Below, piece by piece: positions 18,130 through 49,922 of a DNA stretch of 64,000 nucleotides. Source of the stretch: Eucommia ulmoides (Eukaryota; Streptophyta; Magnoliopsida; Garryales; Eucommiaceae). The stretch is from NCBI GenBank assembly GCA_016647705.1, contig CM028327.1:43960017-44024016 (forward strand), read 5' to 3'. Under the pieces are notes generated by a model. It searched no databases. It had not been told where the DNA came from and saw only the letters and a program-made list of their open reading frames with translations. The stretch's first letter is position 1; each line of letters opens with the position of its first letter. The position numbers and the translations under genes are program-made.

Positions 18130-18828
18130 GGGCTTGTTTGATAACAACTTAATTTTTAAGTGCTGAAAATTTAAGTGCTGAAAATTAAGTGCTAAAATTT
18201 TAAGTGCTGAAAATTTAAGAAAGTTGTTTGATAAAATTGTGCTGAAAATAAAGTGCTGAATTTTTTTTATTTGTTTGATAAGTATAAAATTTGTATGCTA
18301 AAAATTATTTAATTTGCATAACTACCTTTGAATTAAGATAATGTGAAGAAGAAAAAAAATTGAGAACAAAACAATAAAATCAGGGTGCCATTTTAAAAAA
18401 AAAAATATATTAAAATTAAAAGTAGAAATTAACCTAAAAATATGTAAATATTATGTGTTTTTTATGTAGTTTGATTACTTAAATTAAATTATAACAATAA
18501 TTTAAATATAAAATAAAATTAAAATCATAAAATAATCCAAAATTAATTCAATTCTCATTAATCATAATTTTAATTAAACCCTCGTAGGGGATCAAGGGTA
18601 AAATGGTCAAAATATAAAAAAAAATTAAGTGAAAAATAATGGAATGCATTAAGCAAAATAAAATAAGTAAGAGATTTTAACTTAATTTTTTATTCACATT
18701 TTGACTTAATTTTTAAATTAACTTAATTAATTAAGTGATATTAATTACATTTATCAAACAAACTTAATTAATTAAGTACTTAATATAATCAGTTTTAAGT
18801 ACTTAATTTTTTTTTATCAAACATGCCC
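18130..18828. mobile_element. Tourist-like (PIF/Harbinger) element inside copia RT
   Basis: It starts GGGCTTGTTTGATAA, ends TTATCAAACATGCCC, and is flanked by the 3-bp duplication TAA (18127-18129 and 18829-18831). It is 699 bp, AT-rich and non-coding, with TTAAGTGCTGAAAA repeats near the left end. Deleting it with one TAA joins the copia frame across the gap. The 2.98-kb element at 46208-49188 has the same termini. Confidence 0.8.
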
Positions 18829-43600: not shown

Positions 43601-46600
43601 GCGATGTAGGATTGGGACTTTTAGACCAGCCAATTCGCTCTTAGATTTAAACAAACCGAACATAAATTGATTTCAAAATTGAATCAAAAAACCTAAACTA
43701 ATCAAAATTAATAATAAACCTAAATGAAATTGAAAATTAGTGAGAGAGGGAGAGAGATACGAACCTGGAACGGAAGCGCGGTGATGGTGATGCACAGTGA
43801 TGGATCAATGATGAGAGACGCTGCTAGGGTTTTGATGGAAAGGTGAGATCGGTGGTGGCTATGTGAAGATCGAAGGCTGGTGATGGAAACCGCTAGAGGC
43901 GGTGCGTAGATGAGGAGGCAGGAAGCAAGAGGCAGAGAGATGAGGGCAACGGAACGGGGTGGAGCAGAGGTGCCCGTCGTGTGGGGATGGCGGAGGGGCA
44001 AGGGAGAGAAGGCTGAAGCCTGAAGCAAAATGAGGTGAGCAAGAGAGTGTCTCAAGGCGTTACCGCTTACCAGTGCGTTAGGCGGCTGCGAACCCTAATT
44101 GTTAAGTTATTTTTTATCTAACGGCTATCAATATCTAGAGGTTTGTTTTTTGATCCAACGGCTCTCTTTATAAATGAGCTGATTTATTATATAGATGTGT
44201 GTGTGTATGCCTACGGCCTAAAGGGATTAAATTTAATTTATTACATTAATTTTGAATATATAGTTTCTCAATAAAATCTAAATTAACATGTCTGGGAAAT
44301 GTCTCCAACCATGTAATGGTAAAAAATATCTCAAATATAAAACATTTCTGAATTCATTATACATACAGGCAAGCATATACACACATATATATATGTATAT
44401 GATATAGCATATTTTTGCTGTGGGTGGGTGGAAAGTAGGGTGAGGGACTTCGAATAAACTGGGTATTTTTTTGTTATGGTCAGATGCTGTTGCGAAGGGT
44501 GTACGACCAGACCAAATTATATTTACGGATGTTGCAATGAAGAATGAGCATATTAGACGTAGTGCTCTAGCTGATCTGTTCCTGGACACGTATGTGCATT
44601 TACTAGCCTTTTCACCGATTTATTATTTCTATTTTTCGAGTAAAAAGTTATTGATGTATCATCTCTGTGTAGACCATTGTGCAATGCACACACAACGGGT
44701 ACTGATGTTCTTTGGGCTGGCCTTCCAATGGTGACCCTTCCCCTTGAGAAAATGGCTACTAGGGTTGCTGGCTCACTCTGCCTTGCTACTGGAGTTGGGG
44801 AGGAGATGATCGTCAACAGGTTAGGGCCTGTTTCGTTTTCTAAATTATCCTATTTTATGAATTGTGTTACTTTTGATTAATTGATGAGATTTTTGCACTT
44901 TGCATCCCTAAAGTTTTCGAGAAGTATCACTTTAGGCTTGTCCTTTCAATTTGAACACTTTAAAACTTGAAATATCGAAATTGTGTCAAAGTGAGTTTAA
45001 ATTGTTAACACCGTCATTGTTTTTGACTGAAATCATCACGTGTCAAGGACATCCATGTGGGTGATTTCCGTCAAAAAAATGATGGGGTGAACGATTTGGA
45101 CTGATTTCGACACGATTTGGATATTTCAGGATTTAAAGTGTTCAAATTGAAAGGACATATACTAAAGTGGGATGTCTTTGAAACTTCAAGGGTGCAAAGT
45201 GCAAAAACCTCTTAATTGATTTATATATTTCTTCACTTATCTATAATTTAATCAAATTTACATATTAAGAAACATAAAATTGTGTTTGTTTTGTGTATTG
45301 ATAATATCTTAGTATTATTCGTATAAATCAAAAAAATTCATAGACGGTCTAAAAGAAGTTGAAGTCTTATAATGTAAAAGTGGAAAAAACCCCCGAAAGA
45401 CAACATTTTTATTTCTTTTCGAAAAAATTTGATTAAGTAAAATCCTCTTTTTTAAATATTTTTTTAATTACATAACAAATGCTACTTTTAAAATTAAGTG
45501 AAAAGAGCATTTTAAATAGAATGAAAATGGTTATTTTAGATATATTTTCTTCCTATTATACATGAAAACCGCATTAAAAAAAAATGGCAGTTTAGTGTGC
45601 GTAGGCCCTCGCCATTGTGGTTCCGTTTTGGTGTCTGGAGAGGCTTAGATCTACGCATCCTTGCCCCTATATACAGGAAGGTCATTTTCAAGATTAAAAC
45701 TAGAATCAAAATAGATAACAAAAACTAGAATCAAAATAGATAACAAATGTGCGGTTACAAGTTCACATTCAAACTGTAAAATGGTCTAATTTGTCGATTG
45801 AACATGCACTTACAAGTTTGAACCGTATCAAAGTTCTTAATGCAGTTTTTTGAAGTTTGTTTCTAATGTTTCTTTGTTTAATATTGAAGTATGGAGGAGT
45901 ATGAAGAAAAGGCAGTATCGTTGGCATTAAACAGATCAAAACTCCAAGATCTTACCAACAAACTGAAGGCGGCCCGTTTGACCTGCCCTCTATTCGATAC
46001 AGCACGCTGGGTGAGTTTAAATTCTCTTTGTTCTCTAGCAAAATATTTAAGGTGGCGTTCAGGGTTCAGGTAGTGTTTTTGTTTATCAGCACTGTCTGGT
46101 AACACTTTTATTAAGTTTTTAAAAGAATAATAACAATAAAAAAAGTTAATTTAGGGCACCGTTCGGTAATACCCTTTTATGTACGTTTAAAATAAAATAA
46201 CGTCTAAGGGCTTGTTTGATAATGACTTAATTTTTAAGTGCTGAAAATTTAAGTGCTGAAAATTAAGTGTTTAAATTTTAAGTGATGAAAATTTAAGTAG
46301 GTGGTTTAATAAAATTATGCTGAACTTAAGTGCTAAATGTTTTTTGTTCGTTTGATAATTATAAAAAATGCTGAAAATTATTTAATTTGCAAAACTACCC
46401 TTGAATCAAGATGATGATGATGATAATAATAATAATTAAAAAAAAAAAAAGAACAAAACAATAAAATAAAAACATTAATAATACTCAAAAAAGTTTAAAT
46501 ATATAAATTATCACAAGTCAACAATAACATAAAATTCAACAGATTGGTTAAAGTTTAATACATATTTGATCTGTTTATCATCTAACCAATCAGATTGGAT

Positions 46601-49600
46601 CGAAACGGGACTATCTGATTGCAACCACAACATTCAACAATTTCTAATACTAGTTTGATTGAAAGCAGCATTCTAGAATTTGAGGATTTAGGGTTGTGAT
46701 TGTCTTGCTCGACGTTCAAGTCCAAGTTGTTCGATGATTGGAGTCTGTTATCAATATCATCCTCGTGGGAAAGAATTTGATCACAATCATTTCCATCCCT
46801 TGTGCTAATAATTATCTAAAAAATTTAGGACAAAAAAAATATCATCATAAACTGCAAAGGAAAACATTTACGATTGTTGTAATAAGTGTTCAAAGCCAAT
46901 CATTAATGTCTCAAAACCTTTAATAAACCATTAGACGAGATGAATAAGAACATCATTTCAGAAATTTGATATTGATGTACGAATGTAATTTGATTACGAC
47001 AATGTAGGAACTAAACAAAAGCGTAATTTTAGAGTTTAAAAAAGACATAACAATCGAAAACGAAATGGAAACGATTTCAGAGTTTAAATTCAAGTTATAA
47101 TTTTTAATGGTAAATCCATTCATTTCAAATTCAGCCATCCAAATTCAACCTAGATGAATATCGGTGAATTTCCAAAATTCATAACACTGATGTAAATGAT
47201 ACCTGGTGATGGAGAGTGTTTGCGAGGCGCACAATGAAAAGATCGAGATGATGATCTTCCTGTAATACAAAATCGAAGCAAGTTTATGTACTAGAACCCA
47301 AACATGATAGGCACGGTAAAATAGAGGAAATATACACAAGGAATACAATTCGTAGCAGAACATAGAAAGGATGTCATCTGGTAGTCCATATGATCAATAG
47401 CATGTAAGGAAGAAATCAGTAATGCCATGCCCCCAACAAAAAGAACATATAATTAAGAATATTATTGGTGAAAGAAAAACTGCATACAACCCCATATCAG
47501 AGTAAAGAGAGATGCATAAACTCAAAAGAAAGAAAGAGAAATTTAATCAAGATATAAATAGTCACATACCCTAATGACATCAAAATCAGAGTAACAAGAC
47601 AACATCACATACCTTGATGGTTCCCTTCTCTTCGAAGGGTAGTTATCCGGGCTGTGTGATCGAGATCTCCCATAGCGCGGGGGAGACCGCCTTCAATCGT
47701 AAGTCCGCCCTCTACTGCATAACATAAATATAAGAAAGGACAACGAAGCACAAGGTCAGGCTCATCCTGACACACTGGAGAAATAGTGAGACCGAAATAA
47801 TCAATTTCATATGTCAAACAGAACCAAAAATGATAGAAAATAAACAATTTTTTTGTTCCTATATTTATGGGAACAGAAACAAAAATGATAACAAAATGCG
47901 ATCTAATGGTGGAAATCAATCTGTATGCATATATAAACGTAAATCAGTCCACATATTGTACAAAACCAAAGCCCATGAATTAAACAGGAAGAAACCCAAC
48001 AAAAACACACCTAGATTACTCAAAAGTGTTCACGAAAAGATCATGACGACAAAATCGAACCATGTAATCCACATACTTCCCTATCATCCCATTTGATTTT
48101 CTTGTAGCCTTTCCTCTCTTCTTTGGTAAGATTTCAAGCTAATTCAAAGCCAAAATTCGTTAGTTGAACCTCTTGATGGAGTAAAATGACACAAACAAAT
48201 AATGGAAATGGGAGCCATTATCTTCAAACAAATTTTTTCCAAATAAGAAGCGTCATAACTAAAATCAAAAGCTACGCATTCCTTAAAGCTATGAAGTGTG
48301 AATCCAAGTACACAAAAATCACGCCACAAAAAAAAAAAAAACAGCAGATGAATATCTGATGTGAAGTTTGAGTTCGACAAGAGCGTATAAAGATCAGTAC
48401 ATAGGTTTTAGTAGAAGTACCAGAGCCCATGAGTTCATCCAACAAAGCTCTCTGTGCATCCATGACTGGGATTTGAGTTGTGAGAAACGTCAATCATGTT
48501 CGATTTAGAGCTGTAATGACAAAATCAAAGGCTGATGGAAGAAAATTTAACCAAGGCGATTGCGAATTTCAGTGAATCAACAGAAAATTTCTCCAAGAAT
48601 TAGGGTTTCATCGGATGAATAATCGTGATTTTCTAATCTCAATTAAAACACTCCAAACTATAAAACATAAATTTCAGATTTGCAGAAATTTGAACGAAAA
48701 ATAGAAATTTGTTGAAGAACAGAAAAACAAAAATTTGAACGAAAAACAAAAATCTTGATCGCCGCCTCCATCGCCTCAACGAAGATCGATCGATCGTCGC
48801 CTCTTATCTGCTCAACAAAGATCGATCGATATCGCCACCTCTCGATCGATCGACCGCTGCCTCCATCGCCTCAGCTCGCTGCTTTGGAAAATGAAAACGA
48901 GAAAGACCATCGAATGAATAGAGCAGATGAACCTTGCATCCCTAAGGGCAAAACGGTCAATTCTTTTTTTTTTTTTTAAATTTGAAAAGTGCTGAGCGTT
49001 TTCTGCAAAAAAAAAATAAATAAATAAATAAGGGGGGTTTTGTTGAATTTTTTACATAATATTTCATTTAATTTTTAAGTTAACTTAATTAATTAAGTAA
49101 TTTTCATTACATTTGTCAAATACATTTAATTAATTAAGTACTTAATTTAATCAGTATTAAGTGCTTAATTTTTTTATTAAACATGTCCTAAGTCTTTGTC
49201 CCACTCAAGTAGAGTTAGCTGCATGAATCTGTTTACACCATAGTAATCGATCAAGGTTCATCCCCTTAGGTTTAATGCCATCAAATTAATCTAGTAGTCT
49301 CCTCCCAAAACTTCTTAGGCCTGCCTGTCCTTCTAGTAGTCCTCGTACTTGAACTAAATCGTATTTTTTCATTAGTACTTCTATGGGTCTTCTATGAATA
49401 TTTCGAAACCATTGTAAATGATTTTCTCTTTGATTAGTGCTTTTAATTACTTTTAAATAAAAAAAAGTACTTTTACCGAAGCAAAAAATAAAGCGTGCTT
49501 GACGGTATAAAAGCAATGTTTTAGTATTATCCTTATAAAAGATTTTTTAAAAGAAAAAATTAATTTTCAATCCATTATAAGAGTAAAGTGTAGTTTTTCA

Positions 49601-49922
49601 AAGTGAAGCGGACCTGAAACAAGATCAAAGTACAAGAATAAAAACGGATTTATCCCAGTACTAATTCAATACTAGTTAACATCACTTCGATAAATTCATT
49701 TTGTTAAAAGATATAAAAATGAAAGAAAAAAAAATGAATAAAATATTAAAAGTGATTTATTTGAAGGATAATTTTATTTATTTATTTTTTTATTTTATTT
49801 TATTTTAGGTGAGAAATCTGGAGCGAACATACTTCAAAATGTGGAATCTCCATTGCTCAGGCCAACACCCACAGCCATTCAAGGTGGTAGAGAACGATGT
49901 AGAATTTCCATATGACCGTTAG
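31630..49922 (+). CDS. SEC: SECRET AGENT-type O-GlcNAc transferase (SEC)
   Basis: This family transfers GlcNAc from UDP-GlcNAc to Ser/Thr of nuclear and cytosolic proteins (DELLA regulation in Arabidopsis). Exons: 31630-31870, 33127-33269, 33385-33483, 33575-33625, 34447-34563, 34649-34705, 34930-35049, 35240-35302, 35396-35474, 35912-36021, 36147-36200, 36300-36367, 36455-36557, 36978-37180, 37274-37370, 38251-38322, 38443-38519, 38601-38717, 38811-38895, 39005-39172, 40062-40172, 40264-40350, 41176-41303, 41420-41502, 44484-44589, 44673-44819, 45890-46010, 49809-49922. They join to 1006 residues. A Gln-rich N terminus is followed by TPRs (about 81-535). The catalytic half contains [36 protein letters not shown] and the SEC-type end VEFPYDR. 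It lacks SPY character. Intron 13 is GC-AG. The start ATG is inferred. Introns 22, 24, 26 and 27 hold transposons. Confidence 0.95.
36648..36735 (+). pseudogene. Decayed duplicate of SEC exon 13 inside intron 13
   Basis: ACATTGGCTGTCACAACAGG and TTTCTGCTCCCTTCAACAAT from exon 13 (36455-36557) recur here 90 bp downstream of it, followed by a degraded donor region (CGACAGGCTATAGG versus CAACAGGCAAGAGG). The copy carries TAA where the exon reads GCA, so inclusion would truncate the protein. It is a tandem partial-exon duplication that has become a pseudo-exon. Confidence 0.8.
39589..39750. repeat. Small TIR repeat in SEC intron 20
   Basis: It begins TTGTAAAAGGCGGGGGC and ends TGCCTTTTACAA, with GC-rich CCCCGGGGC and GCCTCGCCTCTTGGCGGGCC in between. 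The composition is unlike the AT-rich intron. No flanking duplication was identified and no function is visible. Confidence 0.5.
40388..41107. repeat. Foldback element in SEC intron 22, split by a SINE
   Basis: The ends TAGGGATGGCAACGGTTC and the inverted GAATTGCTATCCGTA frame sequence rich in CCAAAACCAAAAC and GGTTTTCAATTCCAAA, in opposite orientation in the two halves. A SINE with its own target duplication (40668-40860) sits in the middle. The element at 30668-31109 is a relative. Confidence 0.6.
40668..40860 (+). mobile_element. tRNA-derived SINE with 9-bp target duplication
   Basis: The head reads GAGTTGGTCCAAGTAGATGA (box A region), box B is GGATCGAATCTT, the 3' part is GGGGATACTCTGGGAAACCG, and an A tail ends at 40860. 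The direct repeat TATATACAC flanks it exactly (40659-40667 and 40861-40869). It is sense-oriented in SEC intron 22 and nested in a foldback element. Confidence 0.8.
41534..44195 (-). mobile_element. Non-autonomous Helitron in SEC intron 24
   Basis: On the minus strand the element begins TCTATATAATAAATC at 44195 and ends CTAG at 41534. A hairpin (CGTGCC, loop, GGCACG; 41547-41562) lies 9 nt before CTAG, and insertion is between A and T without target duplication. These are the diagnostic Helitron features. It is 2662 bp with no Rep/helicase, hence non-autonomous. It carries a DCP1-like exon (42727-42871). An 18-nt poly-G run lies at 41819-41836. It lies antisense within the SEC intron between exons 41420-41502 and 44484-44589, which it has lengthened about tenfold without touching the splice sites. 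Confidence 0.85.
42727..42871 (-). pseudogene. Captured DCP1-like exon inside the Helitron
   Basis: Read on the minus strand, an AG acceptor precedes 42871 and a GTATCA donor follows 42727. The 145-nt exon encodes [16 protein letters not shown], then [20 protein letters not shown] and [11 protein letters not shown] without a stop. This matches the EVH1-type DCP1 decapping-activator domain of plants (family motif [17 protein letters not shown]). I see no other DCP1 exons in the Helitron, so it is a gene fragment. Both splice sites are intact, so it could be spliced into Helitron-promoted or antisense SEC transcripts. Confidence 0.8.
44886..45210. mobile_element. MULE-type MITE, family copy 3, in SEC intron 26
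   Basis: This 325-bp element begins GAGATTTTTGCACTTTGCA and ends TGCAAAGTGCAAAAACCTC, flanked by the exact 9-bp duplication TTAATTGAT (44877-44885 and 45211-45219). The long inverted ends include CTTTCAATTTGAACAC opposite GTGTTCAAATTGAAAG. It belongs to the same family as 3128 and 6212 in SEC23. Confidence 0.85.
45586..45705 (-). mobile_element. Degenerate Au-like SINE in SEC intron 26
   Basis: On the minus strand it reads CTTCCTGTATATAGGGGCAA, then GCGAGGGCCTACGCACAC, a worn version of the Au SINE body and tail seen at 5401. Box B is degraded. Confidence 0.55.
47203..47259 (-). pseudogene. Captured RS-domain exon 2 (splicing-factor-like)
   Basis: On the minus strand, TTGTATTACAG precedes 47259 and GTATCA follows 47203. 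One frame of the 57-nt exon gives [18 protein letters not shown], an RS-type sequence. Joined to the preceding captured exon the frame is off by one, suggesting an indel since capture. Confidence 0.55.
47613..47714 (-). pseudogene. Captured RS-domain exon 1 (SR-protein-like)
   Basis: On the minus strand, TTATGCAG precedes 47714 and GTATGT follows 47613. The frame reads RGRTYD, a TGA stop, then [17 protein letters not shown] and YPSKRREPS. The TGA sits where CGA (Arg) would continue the RS pattern, consistent with CpG decay. This looks like an internal exon of a plant SR or SR-like splicing factor; I cannot name the source gene. Confidence 0.65.
48421..48463 (-). pseudogene. Captured LUC7-like first coding exon
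   Basis: On the minus strand, ATG at 48463 opens [13 protein letters not shown], the N terminus of plant LUC7-related U1 snRNP proteins, and ends at a GTACTT donor (48420-48415). No downstream LUC7 exon (zinc fingers) was found in the 2.2 kb that follows within the element. It is therefore a fragment with its start codon and donor intact. Confidence 0.75.
49192..49420 (-). pseudogene. 3' end of an RTE-like LINE in SEC intron 27
   Basis: On the minus strand the frame gives [18 protein letters not shown], then a GLRSFGRR stretch and KQIHAANST before GTGGGACAAAGACTTAG. This is the same C-terminal LINE tail as at 23872-24261, in the opposite direction. The Pack-type element inserted right at its TAG/TAA end. 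Confidence 0.65.

Follow-up and report, generated by a model that had tools for sequence, protein, structure and literature searches.

Rice Pack-MULEs, Mutator-like elements (MULEs) with terminal inverted repeats (TIRs), move gene fragments together with introns, and they have 9-bp target-site duplications and a MURA-type transposase. Maize Pack-PIF elements with captured gene fragments have been published in a study (Gisby and Catoni 2022, PMC8903248) whose accessible sections also survey PIF elements of rice and report no new Pack superfamily in Arabidopsis, and PIF transduplications are described in the accessible text on grapevine Pifvine-3 (PMC2528002). The uptake of gene DNA by plant TIR transposons is still debated, and a 2026 review, in the portion at hand, considers that there is possibly an undiscovered capture route for unlinked fragments (PMC13317346). 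Here, we describe an element at positions 46208-49188 of a 64,000-nucleotide stretch of the Eucommia ulmoides genome (GCA_016647705.1, contig CM028327.1, positions 43,960,017 to 44,024,016; hereafter, the window). It is very probably a complete, non-autonomous PIF/Harbinger element of the Pack-TYPE kind that carries host-gene DNA. It is 2981 bp long, the donor-matched pieces together account for ~1.5 kb, and it lies in a gene that we take to be SEC, a name that rests on the label in a preliminary description of this DNA.

The ends of the element form an inverted pair with three mismatches, and the DNA next to them recurs in L072 and L073, two longer members of the family found elsewhere in the genome (loci and contigs are numbered with L and C, respectively):

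46205..46207, no strand: left target-site duplication, TAA (sequence; TWA duplications genome-wide)
46208..46222, plus strand: left terminal inverted repeat, GGGCTTGTTTGATAA, 15 bp (sequence, motif search)
46208..46541, plus strand: left subterminal DNA common to L072 and L073 (84.0% and 84.5%; alignment)
48895..49183, plus strand: right subterminal DNA common to L072 (79.9%; alignment)
48939-49183, plus strand: right subterminal DNA common to L073 (84.5%; alignment)
49174..49188, minus strand: right terminal inverted repeat, TTATTAAACATGTCC, 15 bp (sequence, motif search)
49189..49191, no strand: right target-site duplication, TAA (sequence)

The genome searched comprises 946.67 Mb in 391 contigs, in which the window is C3:43960017-44024016; copy numbers given here are lower bounds, as genome searches scored the best 40 candidates, or the best 150 in the transposase-frame search. 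TWA followed by GGGCWTGTTTGATAA had 1120 exact matches genome-wide, and the reversed control pattern had none. Among the 100 ends listed of these 1120, 19 head-to-head pairs lay less than 8 kb apart, next to one divergent pair and three same-strand pairs. The same TTA or TAA stood on both sides in 19/19 head-to-head pairs, with the proviso that the search pattern itself required TWA at each end, so that only the agreement between the two sides was free to vary. Ten of the 19 measured 671-708 bp, six 1.07-2.3 kb and three 4.0-4.35 kb. A separate table of 40 rows, which counted ends only if flanked by TTA/TAA and is thus biased towards matching duplications, held both ends in nine rows, with agreeing duplications in eight. 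The preliminary description had reported the inverted ends with TAA duplications and had made its reading depend on the recurrence of these ends as element termini elsewhere; both hold. Its proposal that a non-autonomous element of PIF/Harbinger type had captured exons and lies within SEC is borne out by the recurring ends, the transposase-bearing partners and the located donors.

L072 and L073 are two of the three longest listed pairs (4.35 kb, TTA/TTA each). With the window element they have 334 bp in common on one side and 289 bp (L072) or 245 bp (L073) on the other, at 80-85% identity, and both match the PF13359 DDE_Tnp_4 profile (2.3e-11 in L073 and 3.4e-9 in L072). A frame for a second, Myb/SANT-like protein lies at L073:1685-1987 (PF12776 Myb_DNA-bind_3, 3.9e-10), with a 94% similar frame in L072. 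The family is therefore PIF/Harbinger, because Harbinger DDE transposase frames occur in members that agree with the window element in their ends and subterminal DNA, and because its ends recur with TTA/TAA duplications. When the four L073 frames were compared with the window element by tblastn, no match was found, while the L072 control matched all four. That the element belongs to some other TIR superfamily (MULE, hAT or Stowaway/Mariner) is scarcely credible: many plant Pack elements are MULEs, but the 3-bp TTA/TAA duplications and the same-end members with DDE_Tnp_4 speak against it. Pack-MULEs resemble the window element in their intron-containing gene fragments and differ from it in having 9-bp duplications and a MURA-type transposase, where we find 3-bp duplications and a Harbinger transposase in the partners; duplication length and partner transposase also rule out hAT.

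Some further observations concern the family at large. L072 and L073 are 97.8% identical to each other, which suggests fairly recent movement. Long open PF13359 frames of 525 and 543 amino acids occur at C6:51255977 and C8:18050205, unlike the many shorter, split frames, and may be host genes of Harbinger-transposase origin. L016 (oriented 1482-2600; C8:42.05 Mb) is a family member with a piece of a BED zinc-finger gene (PF02892, 4.3e-5) in transposase sense, and L017 has the same BED-piece DNA at 92%.

The cargo derives from four host genes on contigs C12, C5 and C17, all in a single orientation. Two of these are splicing-related, a LUC7 gene and a serine/arginine-rich (SR) protein gene, presumably of the SCL type; the others are a protease gene, which we take to be RD19-like, and a CHCH-domain gene:

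47079..47332, minus strand: CHCH-domain gene fragment (donor C17:12248523-12248774, in L074, 87.4%)
47203..47259, minus strand: CHCH-gene exon (RSSSRSF block), bounded by AG/GT and open in the window copy (sequence, donor alignment)
47374..47575, minus strand: part of an intron of the RD19-like protease gene, papain family (donor C17:1004894-1005098, in L075, 85%)
47573..47945, minus strand: SCL-type SR gene fragment with an intron, the arginine/serine (RS) exon and the start of the next intron (donor C5, L052:5233-5649)
47613..47714, minus strand: RS exon of the SR gene, bounded by AG/GT, TGA at 47693-47695 (sequence, alignment)
47947..47974, minus strand: 28 bp from the RRM exon of that SR gene (L052:5802-5829, 100%)
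47976..48628, minus strand: LUC7 gene fragment with part of intron 2, exon 2, intron 1, exon 1 and 5' region (donor C12, L068:5114-5735, 85.8%)
48011..48138, minus strand: LUC7 exon 2, TGA at 48134-48136, 2-bp deletion (alignment to donor)
48421..48463, minus strand: coding part of LUC7 exon 1, bounded by ATG/GT (sequence, alignment)

The donors are supported by Pfam matches: LUC7 for the joined exon peptides (3.6e-19), RRM_1 for the joined C5 exons (2.7e-7), CHCH for the C17 exons at 12.25 Mb (1.7e-9), and I29 (9.1e-17) and Peptidase_C1 (1.3e-15 and 9.5e-18) for the protease exons at 1.00 Mb of C17; the two places on C17 lie 11 Mb apart. A genome search with the RS exon returned five matches, namely the window copy, L009, L010, L011 and the C5 donor, the sole match outside an element. 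Between the two SCL matches, 152 bp of the C5 donor are absent. A LUC7 paralogue on C4 was rejected as donor, as it matches, apart from repeats, just two exon-sized stretches. The preliminary description had called for the parental LUC7 and SR genes in the same genome, and both are now located; the three minus-strand exon-like blocks with splice signals that it listed (48421-48463, 47613-47714 and 47203-47259) are real, and the one with a single TGA is the RS exon. Its inventory overlooked LUC7 exon 2, and its estimate of one or two splicing-factor genes was right for LUC7 and SR and missed the protease and CHCH donors. It had taken the RSSSRSF exon for an RS-domain exon. We rejected this assignment, since the donor is the CHCH-domain gene, distinct from the donor of the SR exon, and the exon runs in phase into the next donor exon (...CCA CCA CCA G | CT GCA GTG AAC, by eye). 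A PDB search with the CHCH donor gave no convincing match.

Conserved exon orientation and splice signals would also suit an unbroken chimeric LUC7/SR gene, whether real or retired, lying by chance in the SEC intron, the possibility that the preliminary description had named against its own reading. We consider this very improbable and rejected it: every piece traces to a separate donor elsewhere, transposon ends enclose the whole set, and there are copies at other loci. LUC7 exon 2 is open in the C12 donor gene and begins with TGA (CGA in the donor) in 10/10 aligned element copies (window, L009-L011, L023-L027 and L070); a 2-bp frame-breaking loss in the same exon is found in four of the ten, the window copy, L009, L010 and L011. 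The RS exon has its TGA in the window copy, while L009 and L010 retain CGA. Both C-to-T changes, from CGA to TGA, fit the decay of methylated CpG. LUC7 exon 2, like the RS exon, is frame-broken, and the cargo holds no intact coding unit; the small first exon of LUC7 and the 57-bp exon of CHCH origin are still open in the window copy.

A genome search with the whole element gave at least 77 matches; eight loci lay within the search output, and 20 + 18 places were cut out. L009, L010 and L011 hold cargo from all four donors of the window copy, arranged as in that copy, at ~89-92% identity over long stretches, with much of SCL gone and an insertion in L011. The element has thus moved together with its cargo. 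Other copies hold fewer pieces: CHCH-RD19-LUC7 without SCL in L023, L025 and L070, LUC7 without a match to the other donors in L024, L026 and L027, and the CHCH module without LUC7 in L013, L014 and L028-L032; L012 is a deletion derivative without SCL. A partial tandem duplication within the RD19 piece is present in L009 (~oriented 1640-1907) and L010 (~1596-1909) and not in the window copy. The interiors of L028, L030, L020 and L013 were inspected by eye for function, and nothing was recognised.

SCL was found only in the window copy, L009, L010 and L011 among 11 elements compared. Kimura two-parameter (K2P) distances of the window copy from its donors were 0.053 for SCL (373 sites), 0.123 for LUC7 (588), 0.132 for CHCH (252) and 0.149 for RD19 (202). 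Judged from these distances and from the CHCH-RD19-LUC7 copies that lack it, SCL is the piece added last. Copies of the L023 type retain RD19 DNA (L075:2057-2390) and LUC7 intron 2 DNA (L068:4999-5113) that the window lineage lacks at the place of SCL; because sister copies hold this DNA there, SCL replaced it.

Several results weigh against the reading of a complete PIF/Harbinger element with an ordered capture history. The end motif, at three or fewer mismatches, has six matches within the window against a shuffle mean of 3.27, and six or more occurred in 14/100 shuffles, so that in the window alone it is not significant. The transposase frames of L072 and L073 are broken into several open stretches, the duplications of L010 disagree (TTA/TAA), making it the exception among the nine rows with both ends, and no pair of ends was recognised in L011. 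No donor was found for 46542-47078 or 47333-47373 in searches that covered only parts of them, nor for 48629-48894 in the whole-element genome search, no dedicated search having been made; a genome search with 46541-46870 gave 40 matches, none recognisable as a donor. The divergences mix exons and introns and therefore place SCL but leave LUC7, CHCH and RD19 unordered. At the joints, microhomology of 2-3 bp is seen, as a raw count, at three of the six inspected and is at most 1 bp at the SCL-internal joint; the CHCH-RD19 joint in L023 is ambiguous, and the RD19-LUC7 joint of L023 (oriented 1039-1059) holds 21 bp of filler with no clear microhomology.

The three joints with microhomology are RD19-SCL (AAT), SCL-LUC7 (2 bp) and RD19-LUC7 in L012 (CAA). 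The filler in L023 was copied from LUC7 intron 2 (L068:5097-5117, 20/21 bp), which suggests repair. We propose that gene DNA would have entered when breaks inside the element were repaired, the repair switching template to host genes at microhomologies of 2-3 bp. An ancestral form would have held CHCH-RD19-LUC7; subsequent repair in the lineage of the window copy would have exchanged part of RD19 and part of LUC7 intron 2 for SCL DNA, and the four-donor product is found at four sites, one of them the last SEC intron. Movement would have been in trans, with the transposase of members like L072 and L073 recognising the element ends, as their common ends imply. The microhomology of 2-3 bp at the joints where SCL took the place of internal DNA favours break-and-fill capture for this step, for which we hold it to be fairly probable.

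Capture by fusion, in which two related neighbouring insertions lose their inner ends to decay and the outer ends mobilise the intervening DNA, is the model of Catoni and co-workers, proposed in the accessible text for maize Pack-PIF and rice Pack-Mariner clusters (PMC8903248). End-like family motifs lie close together in L021, L022, L036 and L041, which suggests neighbouring or nested insertions, and the occurrence of the CHCH module without LUC7 and of LUC7 without CHCH means that the joining of two elements could yield the CHCH-RD19-LUC7 ancestor. However, the RD19-SCL and SCL-LUC7 joints are direct, no element terminus separates the gene pieces in the window copy, the four donors are spread over C5, C12 and two distant places on C17, and fusion does not predict that SCL sits where sister copies retain RD19 and LUC7 DNA. 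As an account of the cargo, we regard fusion as rather unlikely; it may still account for the first joining of the CHCH and LUC7 modules.

Returning to break-and-fill, all five orientable donor pieces (LUC7, SCL, RD19, CHCH and the zf-BED piece of L016/L017) are in transposase sense. We tentatively suggest, at less than even confidence, that the family builds its cargo stepwise by break-and-fill at microhomologies, with a bias towards the transposase-gene strand. If true, the surviving stages (CHCH only, CHCH-RD19-LUC7 and the form with SCL added) would allow a direct test of the disputed mechanism by which plant TIR elements capture DNA.

The remaining features of the window are a second element of the same family, bounded by two of the six end-motif matches, and the coding exons of the host gene, the last two of which flank the Pack-TYPE element, placing it in the last intron:

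18130..18828, plus strand: second element, 699 bp, TAA/TAA
45890..46010, plus strand: SEC penultimate exon (...LFDTARW), outside the element (sequence)
49809..49922, plus strand: SEC last coding exon (...FPYDR), outside the element (sequence)

The 699-bp element compares with the 671-708 bp class, to which 10 of the 19 listed pairs belong and which is of the size of miniature inverted-repeat transposable elements. The two SEC exons joined matched Glyco_transf_41 only weakly (E 0.0058), short of the curated cut-off, and Rfam and tRNA scans of the window had no matches. As each donor piece occurs in several copies and splice sites are intact, the captured pieces could conceivably influence their donors by way of antisense or small RNAs, or serve as exons in SEC transcripts. 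We think either role improbable: the cargo is antisense to SEC, which speaks against its exons in SEC mRNA, and identity to the donors is ~85-95%, over short stretches. Annotators should bear in mind that exons of this genome that resemble LUC7, SR or protease genes can be transposon cargo.

We found no published account of this element family in the openly licensed PMC literature. Pack-PIF capture is already known; the family of the window element is newly described, with an unusually clear capture record, in that fragments from three contigs are joined end to end, in copies with and without the last piece, which lets one read off the joints, the order of addition and the DNA that was replaced. 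As far as the accessible text of each study goes, grapevine Pifvine-3 resembles the window element as a eudicot PIF with host-gene exons and introns, some common to several copies, but its members appear to retain open reading frame 1 (ORF1) and the transposase beside the extra DNA, while the window element matches no L073 protein (PMC2528002). The study of metazoan Pack-TIRs concerns animals, and the terms Harbinger and PIF are absent from its main text; it offers gap-filling and FoSTeST models, the latter with transposition after template switching, and its capture route, a switch of template at short microhomologies with a median of 2 bp, is as proposed here (PMC8277862). Maize Pack-PIF elements are like the window element in their non-autonomous PIF ends, mostly TTA/TAA duplications and internal gene fragments, and their cluster 18 combines two donors in pieces of 163 bp and 58 bp; the window element, in contrast, is ~3 kb long with four donors and ~1.5 kb of gene DNA including introns, and at least its SCL step resembles repair replacement, not fusion (PMC8903248).

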